From the NCBI GenBank assembly GCA_902461985.1, contig CABQAB010000040.1:1-10455 (forward strand): 10,455 nt of DNA, in the 5' to 3' direction. Both the position numbers and the translations under genes were made by a program. Below are positions 1 through 10,455 of the stretch, piece after piece. The DNA comes from an uncultured Bacteroidales bacterium (GTDB lineage: Bacteria > Bacteroidota > Bacteroidia > Bacteroidales > UBA932). The notes below the pieces were generated by a model that saw only the letters and a list, made by a program, of their open reading frames with translations, searched no databases and was not told the origin of the DNA. Positions within the stretch are counted from its first letter, which is position 1. Every line of letters begins with the position of its first letter.

Positions 1-1971
1 ATATACATAGATATAAATCGGCCTTTCACCATTTAGTCTTGCGTCCGGCAGAGGCAGAGTGTATTCAATTTTCTTTTCGCCTTTTTTGAATTCCACGGCC
101 ACACACCGTGCATCTCCGGCATTTGCCTCGATCAGGGCATTGTTGGATATGTTCAGCAACGCATCGCAGGGAAGCGATTCGCCGTTCATCACCTCCGCCA
201 CACATCTGAGCTCGCGATTTTTTCTGAAGAGTCCGGCTTTGGTGACAACGATTTCACCTTCAATCCGGAGCCTGACAGAGTTCAGCCTGATTTCCGGCAG
301 TTCTTCCAGAGTGATTTCTTTCATTCTGTCCACCAGTTCCCTTTTTTCGATAACAGTGACCGTTTTCTGGAAAACTCTCTTCAGCTCAAGATAGTCATCG
401 TATCTGCTTTCATAGAACTCGATTTTCTTTACGGCAGCGGAAATCCTGTCCTGCTGTTCCTTTATTTTCCTGAACTCGCTTAGTGTCTGATTGCTGAGTC
501 CGTCAATTTTTTCAATGACAAGCCGGGCCCCGCTGATTCCCCTGACAGACGCGAACACTCCCGCCATCCCTTCTTTGTCTCTTTCAAGACTATTCATGAC
601 TATACGGCTCGCCTTGGTGGCTTCGGAGGGGATGTCATAGACTGAAAGTTTCTCCCTTGCCTTGTCAAACTCACTGTGCCTCAGATGGTTCTCGGACATT
701 TCTATCATCTCGTCTACATGATGGGAGTCATCAGCGACATTGCGCTGGAGATCGGGCAGGAAACGCTGGTAGGCTTCCCATAATTTTCTGATTTCAGACG
801 CAGATTTTATCCATTTACCAATTGCTGCATCTTTCGATTCGGCACTCTTCTGAATGGCATCAAAATCCGACAGAGATTCGTTCAGGTCGAAACTGTCAGG
901 ATAAAACGCCTTGGGAATCTGTGACATTCTGAACGACGGGAGAGAAATGCTCTCAGGATTGCCTAAGGAAGCTCTCAGCATGGCAGTAAAACCATCATCG
1001 TCAAATGCGTCTCCGGCGAAAACCGTGAGAGCGAGATTGTCTCCTATAATGCTATCCTTGTATGCGTTTATGGCTGAGACGGTAGCCCTTACTGCATTTT
1101 CCTTGACAGAATCCAGGAATTTCCCGACCACATGGCAGCTGAAACGGCGGTCAGGATCGAAAGAATAGCAGAAATCGTCTATGTCAAAGTCTCCGGCAAA
1201 ATCTGTCTTGATTTTCAGCCACTTTTCGACATTGGCAAACTGCCACGCATATTCATTCTCCTTCTTTTCCGGTGTTGCCAGATAGCCGTTGTTCCTGTCT
1301 ACCTCGTCTACTACATATCTGACCAGTGCGTATTTGAGAGGTGCCTCGCCCACTCCGTCGATTATGCGGCAGGTCCCGTCCATCAGAAAGACCTCTCCGT
1401 CGTACACAGCCGTAGTCAGTCTCAAGGTTGTCCCGGCCGAGACTATTATCAGCTGATGGTCCCCGAAATGAAAGTCCTCTGTACTGTTGGCGCAAGCATA
1501 TCTGACTATCAGTTCCGACATTGACACTGAATAGGAAACCGTCTTGAACCCATTGGCTTCCATGTCCTGCATGAACAATTTTCTTGATTTGACGGGAACT
1601 GATTCAGAAAACACATAGGAAACAGGAATCATACTGGTCCTGTCTCCGGTCTCGCTACTATAGAATGTCCTTATCTCATCAAGAAAGTCCGACTGCCTCA
1701 GAAGTTCGAAATATGGCAGGTCGATTCCGTTTATGGCTGACTTGAGCCCTTTATCCAGTGATGGGAAGAAATCTGCATAGAAGCCTGTTTCCTTCCGTAC
1801 AGCAGATTTGCGGAACTTTGCGGCGTATTCGACGGAATGTCCGGAGCTGTAAAAATACAGCCAAAGACGACTGTCGTCATCTTTGGTGTATTCGTGAAAT
1901 CTGCCGTCAGCGTCAAAAGCCACGGGCAGGATATAGTCCTGTTCAACTAAAAGCACTAACCGAGGGTCCAT
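1..1971 (-). CDS. Partial protein (at least 657 aa): probable degenerate ASKHA (Hsp70/actin-like) domain, coiled coil and beta-rich C-terminal region
   Basis: Read from ATG at 1971, the frame stays open for 657 codons to base 1 with no stop, so the 3' end lies outside the window. I know no named family for it. Three segments line up by eye with Hsp70-type landmarks in the right order. Residues 5-25 resemble phosphate-1, with V9 and Q11-D12-Y13 in place of the catalytic Asp and Gly-Thr-Thr. Residues 173-226 resemble phosphate-2 and the helix after it (IIVSAGTTLRL, then GVGEAPLKYALVRYVVDEVDR), with the Asp replaced by S178. Residues 315-337 resemble the adenosine motif (FAGDAFDDDGFTAMLRASLG). 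Residues ~340-555 are charged and helical, with coiled-coil character, and ~560-657 look like alternating beta strands. The ATG lies one base past the stop of the upstream ASKHA gene, so translation is probably coupled. Inference: a non-catalytic partner of that ATPase. The reading frame is certain; the fold is a hand alignment. Confidence 0.9.
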   Translation of the reverse strand, partial: MDPRLVLLVEQDYILPVAFDADGRFHEYTKDDDSRLWLYFYSSGHSVEYAAKFRKSAVRKETGFYADFFPSLDKGLKSAINGIDLPYFELLRQSDFLDEIRTFYSSETGDRTSMIPVSYVFSESVPVKSRKLFMQDMEANGFKTVSYSVSMSELIVRYACANSTEDFHFGDHQLIIVSAGTTLRLTTAVYDGEVFLMDGTCRIIDGVGEAPLKYALVRYVVDEVDRNNGYLATPEKKENEYAWQFANVEKWLKIKTDFAGDFDIDDFCYSFDPDRRFSCHVVGKFLDSVKENAVRATVSAINAYKDSIIGDNLALTVFAGDAFDDDGFTAMLRASLGNPESISLPSFRMSQIPKAFYPDSFDLNESLSDFDAIQKSAESKDAAIGKWIKSASEIRKLWEAYQRFLPDLQRNVADDSHHVDEMIEMSENHLRHSEFDKAREKLSVYDIPSEATKASRIVMNSLERDKEGMAGVFASVRGISGARLVIEKIDGLSNQTLSEFRKIKEQQDRISAAVKKIEFYESRYDDYLELKRVFQKTVTVIEKRELVDRMKEITLEELPEIRLNSVRLRIEGEIVVTKAGLFRKNRELRCVAEVMNGESLPCDALLNISNNALIEANAGDARCVAVEFKKGEKKIEYTLPLPDARLNGERPIYIYVY

Positions 1972-1972
1972 G

Positions 1973-4900
1973 TTAAATCTGTTTCGCGACTATAGGAAGA
2001 AGAGTGTTGTTCAGATAACTGAGGGCTGCGGCTATGAATATAGGCATCTTGTAGGCGGCCCCGGTCTGCTCCTGATTCTTTGCCTTGAGGTATTTCATAT
2101 ATTCAGGGTCGTTCTGGATGTATGCAAGGACATTCAGATTATCTTTTCCTCTTTCAAGTCCCCTTATGTCTGACAATATTCCTCCGGAATCCACTTCAAT
2201 GAATTTCAGGAATATTGCAAGGAATTCGTTGAAATTCTCTAGCTTGTCGGGGAACGACAAATTTATGCCACCGTCGAAGATTTCGTCTGGAATGACTTCC
2301 ATGTCGTCAAGCATACGGTTTTCTGCACCCGATTTGGTGAACATGAGTCCTTTCTCTCCGACAATGTCGAAATTCTCGATGACAAGACGGCTTTCATCTT
2401 CATCATTACGAACAAAACTGCCTCTGTCAGGTGCAATATGCAGCAGCTGTCCGCAGACAAGTCCCATCGCTACTTCCGATTTGTTTTCGATTTTGCTCAT
2501 GCTCCTTTCATTTTCACTGCTGAAATTGTCCAGAATGAATTTCACGTCCGAGGAACCGAAGCCCGAATTGAAGCAACGTCTGTAATACCGGAGAGCGTCT
2601 TCTTCGTACTTGTCAAGCAACCACTCGAACAGTCTGCCGCCCTTGCCATAGTATCTGGTGTGGACTTCCCTGATGGAATCCATGCCGTTTTTCGTGATGA
2701 CATTTTTTGCAAGTTTGCCGGCATAGAACAGCAGTACGCCTGTCACATACGCTGGAAGTGCGAAAATTGCCGGAACATCTGTATGAAGATATTCATAGAA
2801 CTGCTCGAAATCACGGGCACTGTGAAGCTGGTCAAAGACACTGTTAAGATAATACGGAGCGCGTCCGTAGACCTGAGGATCCTTGCTGATGATATCGCTG
2901 ATATTCAGTACTTTGACCGGAGTGATATGTGACTCATGGAAATTATACAGTGCACGCCTGAACTTCTCCGAAGAGTTGATGGCCTTGAAGAAAAAGCCTC
3001 CTGCGAGCCGGATCGAACTCTGGGTCATCAGGACATTCTTGTTGTCGCGGTTTCCCATTATAAGCAAGTCACTGGTCGAGCCGCCTATGTCGATACCGAG
3101 CGTCAGTCTGGACAAATCCGGTACGCTGTTCTTGGATATCGAATATGAACATACGGATTCGGCTTCAGTGTAGTTTATACGGACAGGACGGGATTTGTCG
3201 GAAGATTCTTCAGGATAGCTCGTCGTGTTCTCAAAAGGATAGACAGTTGCATTTTTGTAAATGCCTGATAGACTTTTCCGGTCCTTATTGCTCATTGCAC
3301 TCGGGAATGACCAGTTCAGCTGGGCAGGAATTGCGTTCGCTTCGACCATATCCGCGCAGATCTGAATCCAGAGCATCCTCATGAATGCAGTTTTACGCTT
3401 TTCACTTTCATCCAGCCATTTCATGTTGTAGTGAAGAATGCCTGCATTGGTCCGGATAGTATATTCATCCATCATGATTACCGGGATATTAGATTCATTT
3501 ACAGGAACGCCCCCGACCAATTCTTTCTTAAGGTCTGCAATGCTCTGTACATTGCCGTCTGCCGTCAGGTACTGAGGGTCGTGCTCATGAAGCCAAGACT
3601 TGATCTGACCGTTGTCCGCTACCGTTTCTTCGTTGGATATGAAATACAATTCATCCTTCTGGGCAAGGGAGAGATGCGGGTTTTCAAATCCCACCAGTGC
3701 AAGCCGCCTGTTTTTGAACGGCATCGGCACTGAAGTCTCGCTGCTGTCCAGTTTGTAGTAAACACAGGTGTTCGTACTGCCGAAATCTATACCTACAGTC
3801 GCTGGTTTAAGATTCTGAATGGATTTGAGGTCCTTCATATACAAAGAGCCGGTCACTGTCCCTTCCGGTGGAGGTGTCTTGACTAACAAGGTACCTCCGT
3901 CAATGTCGTGACCTCCCTTGTTCAGTCTGACACTTACAGAGTGCAGCGGTGTTTTTGAAGACAGGATTTCATATTTATGCATGTTTGTCGCCACCCTGTT
4001 TACCGGATATTTGACCAGATACATATTTTTAAGGTCAGTTTCAGATATGGAATCGAAATCCGCCCCCTCGAAGTTAGGCAGCATCCTGACACCTGTGACA
4101 TTCGCAGGGAATTCACTGTAGTAGAAATACTTGTGCCACTGTGGAGACCGGAAATCAGGCCATGTGAACACCTTGCCGTCAGTTTCAGGAATCACATCGA
4201 GTTTGTATGTTTTCTTGCATACTGACATGAAGTCCGAACTGCCGTCTATCCGGGCGCGAAAATCCACTTCCACCTTGCCGTCTGGTTTCACCTTGGCAAC
4301 CAATGACATTCCGCCCGCTGCAGCCATTATGTCAGAAATTGCGTTCGAAAAAACTTTCAGGGCCTTCTTTGTGAACGGCAGAGCAAGATAGTACTCTCCG
4401 CCGTCCGTTCTCATGTAATACACAGGAGACTTCGAGTAGTCCCTCAGCGGATCTGCCGTGGACTTCCATGCCGCTATGTATTCACTGTCCATAAAAATAT
4501 CACTGCTTGATATTTCAATCGGAGACTCCCCTTTTGCCGTAGAAAAAAGATTGGTCCCGTCAAGATAGAACGTGTGCTCATTGTTCATAAGCATTGCGAG
4601 CGGTCCCTGAGGCATGGCTACAGCGACTGGTATGCTGGTATTGACTGTTTTCCCGTTCTCAGTGAGTTTTTTCTTCAGTTCTTCTTCCCATCTCCCGAGT
4701 TCTGATGACCACGAATCAATAAAGTCCTTGACTGTCGCATAACTAAGTTCAGGATTCTTCAGACATAGTTGCTGAATGTAGTCGAGATAGTACTTGCCAG
4801 GGTCAGGCTGCTGGGTCTGACTTGACTTGATATATACGCAGATGTTATGGATAAATGAATGGAGTCTCTGGATGTCATCAAGAGAAATCTTGTTTACGTC

Positions 4901-5566
4901 CATAGGTGTCGGGTCGCAGAGTTTACCTTCATTGTCAATCCACGGAATTTCCCTTTCGGCTCCCTTGAGGGAATATCCCACAGCCGAGAACAGCAGAGTG
5001 TAAGGAGAAGTCGCACCGACAGTCACCCTTGTATTGCGGCCGCTTTCGTCTTTCATGTCATAGTAGAGAATCTGTATGCAGGCAGGATTGTCTCCTTGCG
5101 GATTGAGGGGCAGGTTTTTCAGAGTCCAGAGAGCCTGTTCATTGAAAAGCATCTCGCCATAGAGGTTCAGCAGACTCATTTCTCCCCCGTTATCCTCGAC
5201 TTTACGCCCGGTAAGACTGACCGGCTCCGAGAACTTGAAACTGTCCGGACGCAGGGCATAGGCAGCGACCAGACCTCTCCACTCTGACTTATAGGCCTTA
5301 TAACACTCATGAAGCACTGATGTTTCAAGTTTTTTTGAGTCCTGGAGCACTGCGCTTCTCGTGAATATCATCCTTGCCCATGGTGAGGGGATTCCGGAGA
5401 CCATAGCCCTGAGTGCGTCCCTGTTATCTCCGCTACGGCCTTTGCTTGTTTCTATATTATTTATATAGTTTGTGATAGATGCAACACTTCCCCAGTGATT
5501 CGGGTCGCCGGCATCAGGCATATCCAGGGAATCCAGCAGCAGCATCCTTTTTTTGTCATCGCTCAT
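1973..5566 (-). CDS. Giant Hsp70/actin-like (ASKHA) ATPase with a large unknown N-terminal module, 1,197 aa
   Basis: Probable cytoplasmic ATPase of the actin/Hsp70/sugar-kinase fold; no signal peptide is seen. Phosphate-1 is GIDFGSTNT at residues 592-600 (D594), phosphate-2 is GIDIGGSTSD at 824-833 (D826), and the adenosine-type motif is GKGGRLFEWL from 974. All key residues are present, so nucleotide binding and hydrolysis are likely. The first ~590 residues match nothing I recognise. They contain aromatic-rich strands (WPDFRSPQWHKYFYYSE) and a short charged helix (EEELKKKL). Family actin/Hsp70 NBDs are about 350-400 residues, so most of this protein is extra. It superficially resembles large Hsp70-like proteins such as the SrfB family, but I cannot confirm membership. 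The chosen ATG at 5566 lies 11 bases after the tubulin-like gene's stop and follows a purine-rich GAAAG. A GTG at 5611 would add 15 residues and overlap that gene. The TAA stop sits one base before the next ATG. Confidence 0.93.
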   Translation of the reverse strand: MSDDKKRMLLLDSLDMPDAGDPNHWGSVASITNYINNIETSKGRSGDNRDALRAMVSGIPSPWARMIFTRSAVLQDSKKLETSVLHECYKAYKSEWRGLVAAYALRPDSFKFSEPVSLTGRKVEDNGGEMSLLNLYGEMLFNEQALWTLKNLPLNPQGDNPACIQILYYDMKDESGRNTRVTVGATSPYTLLFSAVGYSLKGAEREIPWIDNEGKLCDPTPMDVNKISLDDIQRLHSFIHNICVYIKSSQTQQPDPGKYYLDYIQQLCLKNPELSYATVKDFIDSWSSELGRWEEELKKKLTENGKTVNTSIPVAVAMPQGPLAMLMNNEHTFYLDGTNLFSTAKGESPIEISSSDIFMDSEYIAAWKSTADPLRDYSKSPVYYMRTDGGEYYLALPFTKKALKVFSNAISDIMAAAGGMSLVAKVKPDGKVEVDFRARIDGSSDFMSVCKKTYKLDVIPETDGKVFTWPDFRSPQWHKYFYYSEFPANVTGVRMLPNFEGADFDSISETDLKNMYLVKYPVNRVATNMHKYEILSSKTPLHSVSVRLNKGGHDIDGGTLLVKTPPPEGTVTGSLYMKDLKSIQNLKPATVGIDFGSTNTCVYYKLDSSETSVPMPFKNRRLALVGFENPHLSLAQKDELYFISNEETVADNGQIKSWLHEHDPQYLTADGNVQSIADLKKELVGGVPVNESNIPVIMMDEYTIRTNAGILHYNMKWLDESEKRKTAFMRMLWIQICADMVEANAIPAQLNWSFPSAMSNKDRKSLSGIYKNATVYPFENTTSYPEESSDKSRPVRINYTEAESVCSYSISKNSVPDLSRLTLGIDIGGSTSDLLIMGNRDNKNVLMTQSSIRLAGGFFFKAINSSEKFRRALYNFHESHITPVKVLNISDIISKDPQVYGRAPYYLNSVFDQLHSARDFEQFYEYLHTDVPAIFALPAYVTGVLLFYAGKLAKNVITKNGMDSIREVHTRYYGKGGRLFEWLLDKYEEDALRYYRRCFNSGFGSSDVKFILDNFSSENERSMSKIENKSEVAMGLVCGQLLHIAPDRGSFVRNDEDESRLVIENFDIVGEKGLMFTKSGAENRMLDDMEVIPDEIFDGGINLSFPDKLENFNEFLAIFLKFIEVDSGGILSDIRGLERGKDNLNVLAYIQNDPEYMKYLKAKNQEQTGAAYKMPIFIAAALSYLNNTLLPIVAKQI

Positions 5567-5577
5567 ATCTTTCGGTT

Positions 5578-7170
5578 TTATTCTATGTTTTCGTTGAAAT
5601 ACAGTTTGCACAAGGTCGCATAAGTCCTTGCAATCAGGTCATCCATAGTAGTTTTGAGATTCGGGCTGGTTTTCATGAAACAGGACTTGACAACTGAAAA
5701 ACAGTCCTCGAAAAGCCCGACTTTGAACTGAGGCGGATTGTCGCCTGAATAAAGGTCACGGTTGAACTTGATTTTCCCCAGCTCTTTAGGCGTTTCGCAG
5801 TTGAACGGCAGCGAACTGAACAGAATTCCTTCGCCGCCGCGACCTTTATACATCTGAGGCAGCCAGCCTGAAACCAGGAGCCCGTTTGAGGTGGAATAGA
5901 GGAACATCTCGAAATATTGCCTCAAAGCCTTGAACTCGTCCTTGTCCACATCGACAGTTTCGAACATGTTAGGCGTGTTTGCAATGTTGTGGAAATACTC
6001 GTTGTTGAAGTCCAGAAGGGCTGAAGCCAGAAGAACTCCGAAGTTTTTCTTCAGTTTGTCTGTATGGTCCTGTCCGAAGAGAGTAAAGTCGAGTTTTGAA
6101 TTTCCATAATTATGCGATATGCAGAAGAATCTGTTGTCACTGTCCTCACTGAATGCTTTGTCTCCCTTTTCTGCTTCATTGAAAAAATGATATGCGGCAA
6201 AAGCTGAAAGAAGTTCGATGTAGTCTGCCGGATTCTCCTGTTTCTCTCCTCCGGTAACTCCGGCACTTGTCTTCTTTGTGCCTTTCTCATCCTTCTCAGT
6301 CACATCCCTGTTTTCAGAATTCTGCCTTCCAAGCAGATACAACCTTTTGTATGTCTTCTTTACAGTCTCGTCACCATCGTAGAACATGAGCGCAGCCTGC
6401 GAATTGATTGCAAAATTATCGCTTTTGGCAACGACTTCTGTCTCAGTCATCTTGTCCACTTTGAAACGGAAATAGTTGGTAAGGACTATAGTCCCGAAAG
6501 GATGGTCGCCAACGATATTTGTGCTCTTGTTCCCCATTATTTCAGATGCACGGTCGAATGCCAGGGGAATAACAGGGATCGACGATGCTCCTGTTCCTCC
6601 GAAAACCGAGCCGAAAACGAATACAGGCGCTTTGGGAAAGGCATTCAGGTTGTTGATGAATGATTTGAGAGCAAAGGCTGATTTGTCTGTAGAATTGCCG
6701 CCAGCCGGACTTGCCTTGTATGCCGCTTTGAGGATTGCGTAGTACATGAGCATAGAACCCATCTGGGTCTGGGCGCGGTAACCATGCTTCAGATTCATGT
6801 TCATCACATTCCTGTCAAGGAAAAGGTCCGCCAGGTCAGCTACAGGTGAATCTTCTCTGTGGGCTGCGGCCGTCTGGTAATTAGAGAGGCTGTAGAACGA
6901 ATCATTGTCAGTGTAACCAGGTGAAAACTCATAATAGTTGATTTTTGCGGAAAACAGAGTGTTCCTTTTGTAATTCCCGCCATTTATCGAGCAATAGCAG
7001 TTCTTGAGATTTCTCAGTCTCTTGAAGTTACCGTTACCGCTGTCTGTATCGAGGGCAAGCATTTCAACCTCTGTCTCGTCATACATACCCATAGCGCAGG
7101 TATGTATGAAACTTTCCAGACAGCGCATACCTGTGCCTCCGATTCCTATGAGAAATATCTTTTTTGCCAT
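5578..7170 (-). CDS. Tubulin/FtsZ-superfamily-like GTPase, 530 aa
   Basis: Probable GTP-binding, possibly filament-forming protein of the tubulin-like (Tubulin_2 / FtsZ-like) group. The N-terminus is a Rossmann-type strand and glycine loop (IFLIGIGGTGMR, residues 5-16), followed by LALDTDSGN at 39-47, which resembles the FtsZ T2-loop NTD. The tubulin signature loop appears as FGSVFGGTGASS at 186-197, where GGTG at 191-194 stands for the canonical GGGTGSG. A charged, low-complexity insert rich in Lys, Glu and Gly (about residues 285-316) probably forms a disordered loop. The C-terminal ~200 residues are not recognisable, and I could not assign the GTPase-activating T7 loop. At 530 residues it is longer than FtsZ (about 350-400). 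It has no signal peptide or membrane helix, so it should be cytoplasmic. Its ATG is 2 bases after the membrane-protein stop. Family-level assignment is fairly secure; function is inferred. Confidence 0.92.
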   Translation of the reverse strand: MAKKIFLIGIGGTGMRCLESFIHTCAMGMYDETEVEMLALDTDSGNGNFKRLRNLKNCYCSINGGNYKRNTLFSAKINYYEFSPGYTDNDSFYSLSNYQTAAAHREDSPVADLADLFLDRNVMNMNLKHGYRAQTQMGSMLMYYAILKAAYKASPAGGNSTDKSAFALKSFINNLNAFPKAPVFVFGSVFGGTGASSIPVIPLAFDRASEIMGNKSTNIVGDHPFGTIVLTNYFRFKVDKMTETEVVAKSDNFAINSQAALMFYDGDETVKKTYKRLYLLGRQNSENRDVTEKDEKGTKKTSAGVTGGEKQENPADYIELLSAFAAYHFFNEAEKGDKAFSEDSDNRFFCISHNYGNSKLDFTLFGQDHTDKLKKNFGVLLASALLDFNNEYFHNIANTPNMFETVDVDKDEFKALRQYFEMFLYSTSNGLLVSGWLPQMYKGRGGEGILFSSLPFNCETPKELGKIKFNRDLYSGDNPPQFKVGLFEDCFSVVKSCFMKTSPNLKTTMDDLIARTYATLCKLYFNENIE

Positions 7171-7172
7171 CT

Positions 7173-7565
7173 TTATCTGTCTTTTTTAGGGAATATTGAC
7201 TGGAGTTTCGAGCCGATTCGTGCGGTGTAGACTAAAATGAGTCCGGCAATGAAATAAACGGCGGCTCCCGTCACTGCGGCAATAACCATGTGAGTCAGAT
7301 ATTTGCCCACGAATGCCGGTACTGCAATCGCTCTCAGGTAGACGAAGTAGTCAAACACAAGGCTTGCTATCATGGCTACTGCGCCAAGTACGAAGAACCA
7401 TATTCGCCTTGTTGTTCCTGAGTTATCAGTCTTGCTTGACTGGTATTTCACGAGATTCACTGCCAATAGCATGAGCAGCACAAAAACGATAGAAATGACT
7501 GCGTCATAGATGTAAGTTGATGTAATTGCCTGCTGGAGGGCCGGGGCTGTCTTGATTTGTAACAT
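7173..7565 (-). CDS. Small integral membrane protein with three predicted transmembrane segments, 130 aa
   Basis: I recognise no family. Hydrophobic stretches at about residues 21-39, 55-77 and 91-114 predict three membrane helices. Positive charges cluster in the first loop (K40, K45, R53, R54) and at the C-terminus (R116, K120, K127, K128), so the positive-inside rule suggests N-terminus out and C-terminus in. The tail ends with PKKDR. It lies between the lipoprotein genes and the two cytoplasmic NTPase-like genes, 12 bases after the first and 2 bases before the second. It is the only multi-pass membrane protein in the visible operon. Inference: it could anchor or couple the cytoplasmic tubulin-like and ASKHA proteins to the inner membrane. 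No catalytic motif is visible. Confidence 0.88.
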   Translation of the reverse strand: MLQIKTAPALQQAITSTYIYDAVISIVFVLLMLLAVNLVKYQSSKTDNSGTTRRIWFFVLGAVAMIASLVFDYFVYLRAIAVPAFVGKYLTHMVIAAVTGAAVYFIAGLILVYTARIGSKLQSIFPKKDR

Positions 7566-7577
7566 GATTATTGATTT

Positions 7578-8909
7578 TTAAAGTTTTGACGTTGAAATAT
7601 ACAGGCTGTAGACCACTTTGCCGACAGGACTCATCTGAGGGTCCTGAATTACCTGATTTATACTTTCATAGACTGATGTGTTCAGGGCATAGTTCTGTGC
7701 GGCGGAAATTGAGTTCCACTTGAACGAACTGCTGAGTTCCGCATTTGTGGAGAAATTGTTTTCCGCTTCTTCGATAACGAAATCCACTTTCAGAAGGTTA
7801 GGGAATTCGGCTGACAGGGCATCCCCCACGCCGTCGAAATCGTCGTCAAGACAGAGGACAATCTCGCCGGTCTCCTCGAATATGTCTTCGTCTATCGAGA
7901 AGACGTCTTCAACTTTTTCCAGCCTTCTCAGTCCTGGAACTCTTCCTCCTGCGTATAGACTGTCACAATACTCCTGATACTCTTCGTACACCTGATATAC
8001 GACAGGTTCCAGTTCTTTGATATAGTAGCAATCCGATTCGTTTCTGTCTATGAAAAGACCTCTGAACACATAACGGATGTCAATGTCATCACCGTCGAGG
8101 AAATCACGTATGTCTTTCCAGCCCATTCCGTACTCCTGCACCTCGAAACCCGCGTTTGCTACGCAGTTGTCTGATACGGGAGACAGAGAAGGATTGATGT
8201 CCGGGTATTTCTTCGTGGTTCTGACTTCCGGCACACCATCGTACAGATGAAGCATCCTGACACTTTCATCCTTCGGCGCACTTCTTCTGAACCGGTCGTT
8301 GATGTTGTTGGAAATTGAAGAATCGGTGAAAAGCATATAATAGCGGTGCTTGGCAAATCTTCCGCTTTCGATATAAGGTTCGCTGTATATGAAGATTTCG
8401 TGTCCTTTTTTGATCCAGCAGCGGATTTCTTCAGCCAGATACGGATTGTTGAGGTTGTCCTTAACAATGCCCTGCTGAAAATATTCACCGTCGGTTATCA
8501 GAACTGCCTGATGGCTGCCAGCGACAATCATATGTACTGCCTGCTTGATGTCCGCATGGTTCACTTCCCTGACAGAACTCAAAAGTTGGTAGACCTTCTG
8601 TCTGTCATCTGTCTCTCGGGTGATTTGGCTTCCCTTGATTGACCAGAACACAGGAGAACAGTCTATGATAGACGGGTGCGTCGCAGTATAATACGGGGAT
8701 TTCATGGCTTCTGCCACGCAGGTGGAATAGTCAATGAACAAATCAACAGTATCACTGAGTGAAGACACTTTTCCAGGGAAATATTCCTTGTGAAATCTGT
8801 TCAGCAAAGAAAGATCAGGAGTAAAACTGATTCCTCCGCAGCCGGCCACCATTGTTGCCAATATAGCAAGAGCAACTAATCCGGACATTTTGTCAATTAG
8901 GTTTTTCAT
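7578..8909 (-). CDS. Lipoprotein with a vWA-like N-terminal region, 443 aa
   Basis: A lipoprotein signal is clear: hydrophobic residues 11-22 end in the lipobox VAGC, with Cys24 the lipidation site. No acidic run follows the Cys, so the Bacteroidota surface-export signal is not evident and a periplasm-facing location is as likely. Residues ~54-200 look like a von Willebrand A domain: strand DLFIDYSTC with D60 and S62 in the DxSxS metal-site pattern but C64 in place of the third residue, a helix containing HADIKQAV near 118-125, and strand VLITDGEY with T139-D140-G141 matching the third metal-site segment. This fits a partly degenerate MIDAS. Residues ~210-443 are acidic and unrecognised, with many Asp/Glu clusters near 305-385. 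The gene starts 22 bases after the small lipoprotein gene. Inference: an envelope-side adhesion, sensing or scaffold subunit. The vWA call rests on motifs read by eye. Confidence 0.9.
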   Translation of the reverse strand: MKNLIDKMSGLVALAILATMVAGCGGISFTPDLSLLNRFHKEYFPGKVSSLSDTVDLFIDYSTCVAEAMKSPYYTATHPSIIDCSPVFWSIKGSQITRETDDRQKVYQLLSSVREVNHADIKQAVHMIVAGSHQAVLITDGEYFQQGIVKDNLNNPYLAEEIRCWIKKGHEIFIYSEPYIESGRFAKHRYYMLFTDSSISNNINDRFRRSAPKDESVRMLHLYDGVPEVRTTKKYPDINPSLSPVSDNCVANAGFEVQEYGMGWKDIRDFLDGDDIDIRYVFRGLFIDRNESDCYYIKELEPVVYQVYEEYQEYCDSLYAGGRVPGLRRLEKVEDVFSIDEDIFEETGEIVLCLDDDFDGVGDALSAEFPNLLKVDFVIEEAENNFSTNAELSSSFKWNSISAAQNYALNTSVYESINQVIQDPQMSPVGKVVYSLYISTSKL

Positions 8910-8931
8910 ATCAGATAAAATGTTTGATTAT

Positions 8932-9312
8932 CTATTCTCCTGTCAATCCACTGACGAAGCCGTCTAACAGAGCCGGCAGTGAATTTCCGATTTCTGTTAC
9001 AGTGTCCATTATTCTGCTGGCTTCGCGCTTCGTTATAATTCCGTTGATTTTGCCGATTTTCTGGTATATTTCTTGTTTTTCCTCAGGAGTATATGAACTC
9101 AGATTAGCGCGGAATTCCTCACTCAGCGTATAATACTCGTCAATAAGAATATCCCATTCCTCATCAGACATTCCTGCACTACATTCTGCTGTGTCGAGAA
9201 TATTCTGCATTCTTGCTGACATCGGGAGATTTGATACACATGACAAAACGGCAAGGACACTGAGAATCAGTACCATACCTTTAAAGAATGTGGTTTTTGA
9301 CATATAGTTCAT
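8932..9312 (-). CDS. Small helical lipoprotein, 126 aa
   Basis: Short envelope protein of no recognised family. From the ATG at 9312, a charged n-region and a hydrophobic core (residues 13-23) end at VLSC, with Cys25 the probable lipidation site. Leu at position -2 is less typical, so plain secretion or a membrane anchor is an alternative. The mature part (~100 residues) is acidic and predicted helical, with EEWDILIDEYYTLSEEFRAN and PEEKQEIYQKIGKI stretches, and ends in a more hydrophobic tail (SLPALLDGFVSGLTGE). A later ATG at 9303 is equally possible. The open frame extends up to 9414, but the added 34 residues would put the signal sequence internally, so that start is unlikely. It is the first gene after the promoter candidate and precedes the vWA-like lipoprotein by 22 bases. 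Inference: an accessory subunit to that lipoprotein. Confidence 0.8.
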   Translation of the reverse strand: MNYMSKTTFFKGMVLILSVLAVLSCVSNLPMSARMQNILDTAECSAGMSDEEWDILIDEYYTLSEEFRANLSSYTPEEKQEIYQKIGKINGIITKREASRIMDTVTEIGNSLPALLDGFVSGLTGE

Positions 9313-9410: not shown

Positions 9411-9428
9411 CCACACCGAGCGGTGCGG
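9411..9428 (-). promoter_or_regulatory. Leader hairpin upstream of the first lipoprotein gene
   Basis: Read on the minus strand, CCGCACCGCTCGGTGTGG folds into a 7-bp stem with a 4-base loop (GCTC). One pair is G-U on the minus strand but would be an A-C mismatch on the plus strand, so the minus-strand RNA folds better. It lies about 100 bases before the start codon at 9312 and is followed by the T-rich stretch ACTTTCTTATTTG. It could be an attenuator or an mRNA-stabilising structure. There is no evidence of ligand binding. Confidence 0.35.
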
Positions 9429-9553: not shown

Positions 9554-9581
9554 CAAAGATAATCCATTTTTTGCATATCAA
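9554..9581 (-). promoter_or_regulatory. Candidate Bacteroidota sigma-ABfr promoter for the six-gene operon
   Basis: On the minus strand, TATCTTTG (9561-9554) is an exact match to the Bacteroidota -7 consensus TAnnTTTG. A TTG (9581-9579) lies 17 bases upstream as a possible -33 element. Spacing in characterised Bacteroides promoters is usually a little longer, so the -33 assignment is weaker than the -7. Transcription would begin near 9547. The site lies in the AT-rich gap just upstream of the operon's first gene, the expected place. Confidence 0.5.
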
Positions 9582-9617: not shown

Positions 9618-10455
9618 TCAGTTTATGACAATCTCGTCGGTGAAGAGCCACTCTTTGACGGGGCCGGGGGCTGCGACCAGGCGTACGAAGCGTGCGGAGC
9701 AGTCGCAGACGGAACCGAAAGTCTTGAACAGGAGAGCTTCGTTGTCTGTGCTTATGTCATTCGGGATGACAGCGACGGAGCGGAAATTGAGTCCGTCGTC
9801 GGAAACGGAGATTTCAACATGGTCAGGCATATAGACCCACGCACCTTTGCTCTGCATGAAAGTGACCCCTATATAGTGGATGTCCGTTGTTTCGCCGAGG
9901 TCTACCGTTACGTCAAAATCAGGGTGGAAACCCTGCCATTTTTTGTCGCCGTAAGTCCAGCCGCCGAGAACGCCGTCGGTAAGGGCCGTTTCACCTGAAG
10001 AAAGGTATTTTTCGTTTGCAGGGACGTTGTAGATGACCTTCTTCCCTACTCCGAGGTGCTCTAAAGCAGAAAATGATTCTTTTCTTTCGCCGTATTCATT
10101 CGCGAGGTCAAAAACATTATAGCCCTGTTCCTTAAGGCAGGCGTTCGCAACAAGTGCGCGGCTATGGAAGTCTTTGTAATCTTTCAATCCGGCAGACGTC
10201 CAACCTGTTTCGGCCAAGGCTATCGCACGTGGCCAGTACATATACTCGCAGTGGCTTTCTGTCGGAATATACTCGGTCCAAAGGCAAGCCTGTATACCCA
10301 GAAGATGCTTTGTATCTACACCGTCAGGCAGTCCGTCCTCAGGGTCGTATGAATATACGGTCCGGAGTGGAATGTAGCCTCCAATTGAATGTGGTTCCTT
10401 GAACGGAGCGTCCTGGCAATGGTCAAGGTAGCAGTAAGCACCCGGAGCCATAGAT
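9618..10455 (-). CDS. GH20 beta-N-acetylhexosaminidase, C-terminal part (5' end outside window)
   Basis: This is the 3' portion of a glycoside hydrolase family 20 enzyme, which removes terminal beta-linked GlcNAc or GalNAc from glycans, normally in the periplasm or at the cell surface in Bacteroidales. The frame is open to the right edge; the first in-window Met (10451) is internal. The visible part contains the end of the catalytic barrel: PGAYCYLDHCQ, the IGGYIPLRTVYSYDP segment, and GIQACLWTEYIPTESHCEYM with the conserved Trp and Glu (W-T-E) that line the substrate pocket, then the PRAIALAETGW helix. The catalytic Asp-Glu pair would lie upstream, outside the window. The last ~130 residues form a discoidin/F5-8C-like beta domain (VTVDLGETTDIHYIGVTF, VEISVSDDGLNF, ARFVRLVAAP), which in this family often binds carbohydrate. 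It ends at TGA (9620-9618). Likely an independent transcription unit from the downstream operon. Confidence 0.93.
   Translation of the reverse strand, partial: SMAPGAYCYLDHCQDAPFKEPHSIGGYIPLRTVYSYDPEDGLPDGVDTKHLLGIQACLWTEYIPTESHCEYMYWPRAIALAETGWTSAGLKDYKDFHSRALVANACLKEQGYNVFDLANEYGERKESFSALEHLGVGKKVIYNVPANEKYLSSGETALTDGVLGGWTYGDKKWQGFHPDFDVTVDLGETTDIHYIGVTFMQSKGAWVYMPDHVEISVSDDGLNFRSVAVIPNDISTDNEALLFKTFGSVCDCSARFVRLVAAPGPVKEWLFTDEIVIN

Follow-up and report, generated by a model that had tools for sequence, protein, structure and literature searches.

A 10,455-nucleotide stretch of contig CABQAB010000040.1 (assembly GCA_902461985.1), from an uncultured and probably gut-type Bacteroidales bacterium and hereafter called the window, carries a six-gene operon that combines a tubulin-like protein (T) and an ASKHA ATPase (A) with a vWA-type lipoprotein (V), a membrane protein (M), a degenerate Hsp70-like protein (D) and a small lipoprotein (L). 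Judged from sequence, this gene block has the look of a genuine machine that is accessory and linked to the envelope, because its relatives hold the core gene order while the add-on genes vary. By sequence comparison, the V-M-T-A core is conserved across phyla, and D is an addition found in the clade of the window. The gene set varies on two kinds of system that earlier publications had predicted, the FtsZl1/vWA system and the DO-GTPase-GAP1 systems. Our preferred reading, to which we give a probability of about 0.4, is that the operon encodes an accessory, envelope-anchored assembly switch driven by nucleoside triphosphates, which would respond to envelope stress or phage attack.

The open reading frames (ORFs) confirmed the layout described in an earlier note on this DNA, with six collinear minus-strand genes separated by 22, 12, 2, 11 and 1 bases. 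These values assume ATG starts at 9312 for L and 5566 for A, for which the ORF list has longer GTG starts at 9414 and 5611. All six proteins stay below the curated cut-offs of Pfam and NCBIfam. Relatives of A, T and V with a named source include ACI3ZQ_03805, ACI3ZQ_03810 and ACI3ZQ_03820, respectively, of one Candidatus Cryptobacteroides genome, which points to a Bacteroidales host.

To describe the neighbourhood of T, 171 T relatives were collected in a scan of a genome collection, and the best 80 loci were kept. After loci too short for the respective count were left out (18, 8, 11 and 27 of the 80 for V, M, A and D), same-strand neighbours of T were V in 57 of 62 loci, M in 65 of 72 and A in 64 of 69, and D lay downstream of T in 45 of 53. 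In two loci (L048 and L050) the core genes are scattered. The earlier note had proposed a survey for co-occurrence of all six genes; V, M, A and D indeed adjoin T in most testable loci, but L does not share this constancy, its profile matching in 8 of 81 loci with the window included. L is therefore not a conserved member of the gene set. These counts, together with the second-clade regions described below, also speak against the possibility, raised in the same note, that homologues of these genes usually occur apart.

The distribution of the genes is patchy. In a sample of 296 Bacteroidota genomes, T was found in seven (two close and five distant relatives, the centre genome included), and the A profile found three genomes. 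Samples at genus level gave T in 25 of 100 genomes (four close) and in 6 of 101 (one close), again with the centres included. All five distant T genes are flanked by an A-type gene and, on the opposite side, by genes resembling V and M, and 14 of 15 further regions around T, 11 of this second clade and three of the first, keep the order V, M, T, A; the fifteenth region (L190) has no recognised T. Profiles of the two clades match each other with probabilities of 99.9 for T, 99.8 for A over 850 columns and 93 for V, and one genome (G003) carries both clades. The phosphate-1 and phosphate-2 patterns are present in all 15 second-clade A proteins. Moreover, searches among plasmids turned up five from cyanobacteria on which T and A adjoin each other. 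Three were inspected: two have the V-M-T-A order; in the third, a plasmid typed as mobilizable, M-T-A is accompanied by a divergent V. Profiles support T and A in all three and V in two; the cyanobacterial M was assigned by size and place, with transmembrane (TM)-like segments in the one examined and no match to the M profile. All three A proteins have the phosphate-2 pattern. The suggestion that the operon is a distinct Bacteroidota form is thus modified: the core is not confined to that phylum, since V-M-T-A also occurs on these plasmids. Among 12 host genomes, and apart from T, A and D, an FtsZ-type gene was present in 12 and a DnaK-type gene in 11.

The tubulin-like signature of T is borne out in its relatives. 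Both GGTG loops are invariant in 25 of 25 aligned relatives, and Pfam Tubulin and Tubulin_2 match 23 and 21 of the 25 members, respectively, at E ≤ 0.01, the window's own T falling under both Pfam cut-offs. The hhalign comparison with 13 FtsZ proteins was weak, with a probability of 1.7 and the T4 loop alone aligned. By these loops and domain matches, T is assigned to the tubulin/FtsZ superfamily. Sequence searches of the PDB with T, A and V gave either no matches or matches at chance level. Three loci (L035-L037) hold solitary tubulin-like T genes without V, M, A or D. A viral origin was considered and set aside: there was one pattern stretch, but a single-protein query, which reaches close relatives only, found no relative in viral contigs, and phage records gave none.

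The ASKHA signatures noted in A are likewise kept in its relatives. Among 61 A proteins of at least 1000 aa, the four phosphate-1 positions are conserved in all 61, the phosphate-2 positions in 60-61 and the first two glycines of the adenosine motif in 60; its third residue is glycine in 40. A is accordingly placed in the ASKHA superfamily by its phosphate-1, phosphate-2 and adenosine motifs, and because these positions are conserved it probably binds and hydrolyses ATP. On the Pfam evidence it is not a standard Hsp70: Pfam HSP70 matches none of 23 A members at E ≤ 0.01, and MreB_Mbl matches three weakly. An identity with SrfB was also rejected, as Pfam SrfB matches none of the 23 at the same threshold. 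The first ~590 residues have no match beyond chance in Pfam or, by sequence, in the PDB. Some relatives of A are longer, at ~1300-1440 aa (e.g. P0205-P0240); those aligned have a long insert after phosphate-2, which is missing from the window's A, and some carry a GYF_2 domain.

D had been described as a degenerate partner of A, and this description stands. In hhalign, its N-terminal part matches the nucleotide-binding domain of 11 DnaK proteins with a probability of 85.1 over 292 columns, compared with 0.2 for the reversed profile and 98.5 for MreB against DnaK as the positive control. No phosphate-motif pattern matches any of 51 D proteins (420-900 aa). A direct Pfam scan found HSP70 in none of 25 D proteins at E ≤ 0.01; the D gene of L044, identified by coordinates, has an HSP70 match with E 7.8e-4, under the cut-off. 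TPR_2 repeats were found in 7 of the 25, and the later part of D matches TPR proteins in a PDB sequence search. With collinear similarity and lost phosphate motifs, D is classed from sequence as a degenerate Hsp70-like nucleotide-binding domain, and it is a probable pseudo-ATPase because none of the 51 proteins matches the phosphate-motif patterns. Profiles show no similarity between D and MreB, and none between D and A, so that D was rejected as a copy of A's family.

The envelope parts agree with what had been noted, namely a three-helix membrane protein and two lipoproteins, one of them vWA-like. M has three TM-like segments (residues 21-39, 57-75 and 94-112), and V and L have one N-terminal hydrophobic stretch each, that of L at residues 8-26 before a Cys. 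A lipobox pattern is present in 44 of 61 V proteins. The V profile matches 12 true vWA proteins with an hhalign probability of 57 (reversed profile, 0.2), and the D and D..E motif columns are invariant in 29 aligned members, the metal ion-dependent adhesion site (MIDAS) being incomplete; Pfam vWA matches none of the 29. We also considered L as a domain fused to the second-clade V, for which one weak match (E 0.0011, L192) was not upheld on re-check.

The genes following D differ among the relatives. In the 41 of 80 loci that extend 3 kb or more beyond D, a TerD-type gene with a cell-wall anchor is present in 25 and DO-GTPase and GAP1-like genes are present in 11, and no locus has both. A cation P-type ATPase is present in 15 of the 41 loci and a TerB-like gene in seven. 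Two TerD-type families, TerD-a (13 loci) and TerD-b, cross-match weakly by profile (E about 1e-3 to 7e-5). An earlier Pfam scan named TerD (for TerD-a, in both proteins scanned), cation P-type ATPase, DO-GTPase and CW_7. A later scan of 31 proteins, including 10 of the DO-GTPase group, 11 GAP1-like proteins, six anchors and two TerB-like proteins, gave DO-GTPase2 in 10, DO-GTPase1 in nine, CW_7 in six, GAP1-N2 in five, GAP1-M in four and TerB in two. One anchor (L092) has an OmpA domain. Neither FNIII nor GASH was named in the Pfam-scanned module proteins, and no search was aimed at either. The TerD-type form has cultured carriers, e.g. Phocaeicola sartorii (L018) and Barnesiella sp. WM24 (L064), and is testable because of these hosts.

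In a quick tree built from 87 T proteins, which carries a long-branch warning that includes L003, the DO-GTPase label needs at least four changes, indicating that modules have been exchanged on a stable core. The labels on this tree are matches anywhere on a locus, and some (e.g. L024 and L067) are less well based than the 41-locus count. The window's T falls in a supported set of seven, five of which have DO-GTPase and GAP1-like genes; the window and L002 end before that place. Because its T groups with DO-GTPase loci, the window operon probably continues past base 1 with a DO-GTPase and a GAP1-like gene. The earlier note had proposed that the ASKHA ATPase and its partner replace or add to parts of the Makarova-Koonin system; the GTPase is probably not replaced, as DO-GTPase and GAP1-like genes follow immediately behind D in the nearest relatives.

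Two side observations concern these modules. The cell-wall anchors of L005 (16417-17088) and L092 (3987-5156) have repeated N-terminal FDLxK/FNLSK motifs resembling the start of the adjacent TerD proteins, possibly a docking peptide common to both. In addition, a further gene family follows the GAP1-like gene in 5 of the 41 loci (among them L001, 20708-21565; L003, 10874-11818; L016, 13022-13486), with hydrophobic stretches seen by eye; it may supply the GTPase module with an effector.

In the second clade, a ZorB-type TM signature follows A in 7 of 16 loci, and all four pairs tested with PADLOC match ZorA/ZorB. The signature was found in none of 84 first-clade loci, many of which are too short to tell. 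One locus (L094) has Pfam MotA_ExbB and OmpA matches under the cut-offs. DO-GTPase was also tried in the sample of 100 genomes of a Prevotella-type genus and dropped, as two genomes were above the cut-off and neither had T.

Taken as a switch, the operon might work as follows. V, lipid-anchored on the periplasmic side, would sense the state of the envelope through its vWA domain, and M would relay the signal. GTP-bound T would then assemble beneath the inner membrane, and A would use ATP for loading, holding or releasing T or clients on T, with D as a regulatory partner that does not itself hydrolyse. The DO-GTPase-GAP1 pair just downstream would be the switch in the lineage of the window; in sister lineages, TerD-type proteins with a peptidoglycan anchor, or a Zorya-like stator, would take its place. 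Under envelope stress or phage attack, the output would be an assembly formed locally, which either halts the cell or confines the attacker. By sequence, nucleotide motifs are intact in A, present in T and absent from D. The conservation of the core, the mutually exclusive and exchanged modules, the Pfam names of the module proteins, the PADLOC ZorA/ZorB matches, the patchy presence, the carriage on cyanobacterial plasmids, the separate FtsZ-type and DnaK-type genes of the hosts and the predicted conflict role of the DO-GTPase class are counted in favour of this reading.

Several observations weigh against the switch reading. The DO-GTPase module lies outside the window sequence, which ends inside D, and the GAP1-like protein of the nearest relative (L001) has no Pfam match. 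Five of the 41 loci have neither module after D, and of the 25 TerD-type loci 12 have TerD-b, for which the one protein scanned had no Pfam match. The adenosine pattern is present in only 5 of 15 second-clade A proteins, and the phosphate-1 pattern in none of the three cyanobacterial ones. The Zorya link is not specific, because the one ZorB model searched matches 100 of 100 genomes of the Prevotella-type sample, and ZorB was therefore rejected as a marker for whole-genome searches. A PADLOC scan of the window gave two weak matches alone, both to L. T has no match in the phage records, neither a nuclease nor any other plain effector could be recognised, and the formation of a complex by the operon proteins is something we infer from gene order.

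A bolder extension of the switch reading, which we regard as doubtful, would make V-M-T-A a hitherto undescribed, cross-phylum double-cytoskeleton machine that spans the envelope and serves at least three interchangeable triggers, namely the DO-GTPase-GAP1 switch, the set of TerD, cation pump and cell-wall anchor, and a Zorya-like proton stator; this would be a new modular type of immunity against phages or envelope damage. Also unlikely, though a serious rival, is the membrane remodelling proposed by Makarova and Koonin, in which T filaments with V and M would shape the inner membrane or bud vesicles and A and D would assemble or disassemble the filaments. The gene classes are those of FtsZl1 operons (tubulin-like, vWA, GTPase and OmpA-type), and M with the cell-wall anchor could connect cytoplasm and periplasm; however, a patchy distribution and exchanged modules suit a basic remodelling need poorly, and modules of the TerD-type, P-type ATPase and Zorya-like kinds suggest a part in stress or defence. 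That the core instead serves TerD, TerB and the cation pump in ion homeostasis, as a Ter-like response to metal or chemical stress, seems improbable. Although the frequency of these genes after D and the Pfam TerD and TerB matches would fit such a role, 11 of the 41 loci, the window's nearest kin among them, have no TerD-type gene, TerB-like gene or cation pump, and the TerD-type profiles match nothing in 11 second-clade regions. A housekeeping cytoskeleton that serves cell division, cell shape or the partition of DNA, suggested by the joint tubulin and actin folds and by the plasmid-borne cyanobacterial copies, is very improbable, given that T is rare and patchy even inside the genus samples, that hosts retain their own FtsZ and DnaK, that envelope lipoproteins are unusual as partition parts and that the Gloeothece plasmid has its own ParA/ParB.

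Kinship with the system predicted by Makarova and Koonin in 2010 (PMC2875224), which joins FtsZl1 with vWA, GTPase and OmpA genes, was recognised in the earlier note and is supported for the conserved set, which has an ASKHA ATPase, a degenerate partner and membrane and envelope parts. A further trait of the FtsZl1 system is a coiled coil and an alpha-helical C-terminal domain in its tubulin-like protein. As in that system, a Tubulin_2-type protein and a vWA protein, here V as recognised by profile and motif rather than by Pfam, occur beside an ordinary FtsZ; the GTPase and OmpA-type genes lie outside the window, in relatives (DO-GTPase in 11 of the 41 loci, OmpA in the L092 anchor). The present set differs by an ASKHA ATPase of ~1100-1400 aa, which equals V and M in constancy, and by an additional degenerate Hsp70-like protein; Hsp70, DnaK and SrfB are not among the words of the accessible main text of PMC2875224. 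One of that paper's reviewers raised the question of how vWA proteins in the periplasm could cooperate with a tubulin in the cytoplasm; the core described here would supply a membrane linker that is constant, an ATPase as partner and, within one of the clades, a pseudo-ATPase.

Kaur et al. (2020; PMC7159879) predicted DO-GTPase-GAP1 systems as conflict machinery, including a class in which GTPases are combined with homologues of tubulin and an HSP70 protein. In the detailed account, as far as the accessible text goes, tubulin and HSP70 are non-overlapping themes, mostly in Firmicutes and Actinobacteria. Shared features are, in relatives of the window operon, the DO-GTPase and GAP1-N2 genes near tubulin and vWA genes and, more generally, the HSP70 parts, a subset of which has the HSP70 domain without its peptide-binding domain; here, in contrast, a single Bacteroidota operon unites tubulin and ASKHA proteins, and the GTPase module is optional. 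A dedicated description of the gene set, which the earlier note had named as a refutation, was not found in the open-licence literature, where absence is not proof, but the tubulin/HSP70 GTPase class had thus already been predicted. Zorya (PMC11890865) shares the ZorB-type signature after A. ZorA/ZorB-like genes occur only in part of the second clade, the ZorB pattern being absent from the 84 first-clade loci, many too short to tell, and Hsp70 and vWA do not appear in the accessible main text of that paper. Ter stress systems, mentioned in PMC7159879, share the genes of TerD-type, TerB-like and P-type ATPase proteins that sister lineages carry downstream, but the window's closest loci (L001, L003 and L016) have none of these genes. 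In the accessible parts of two further papers, Tubulin_2 proteins are set aside as sparse and divergent (PMC9871819) and tubulin is absent (PMC11090510). The exchanged modules would link the family to the Ter, DO-GTPase and Zorya-like systems together.

The positions of the genes are given in Table 1.

Table 1 Genes of the window, with positions counted from its first base
Gene	Position	Strand	Description
L	8932..9312	-	Small lipoprotein, 126 aa; optional component
V	7578..8909	-	vWA-type lipoprotein, 443 aa; MIDAS partly kept (DYSTC, ITDGE)
M	7173..7565	-	Three-helix membrane protein, 130 aa
T	5578..7170	-	Tubulin/FtsZ-superfamily protein (by sequence), 530 aa; T1-like loop GIGGTGMR, T4-like loop FGGTGASS
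A	1973..5566	-	Putative ASKHA (actin/Hsp70-fold) ATPase, 1197 aa; ~590 residues precede phosphate-1
D	1..1971	-	Degenerate Hsp70-like partner (by sequence), 657 aa visible; gene runs past the edge of the window
	9618-10454	-	Seventh ORF; end of a gene for a family 20 glycosyl hydrolase, with F5/8 type C domain

The glycosyl hydrolase gene end is the same-strand upstream neighbour of the operon and looks unrelated to it. Bacteroidota promoters have a -7 box of the form TAnnTTTG. The sequence TATCTTTG at window positions 9554-9561 (-), ~240 bases ahead of the ATG of L, fits this form and is a candidate for such a box.

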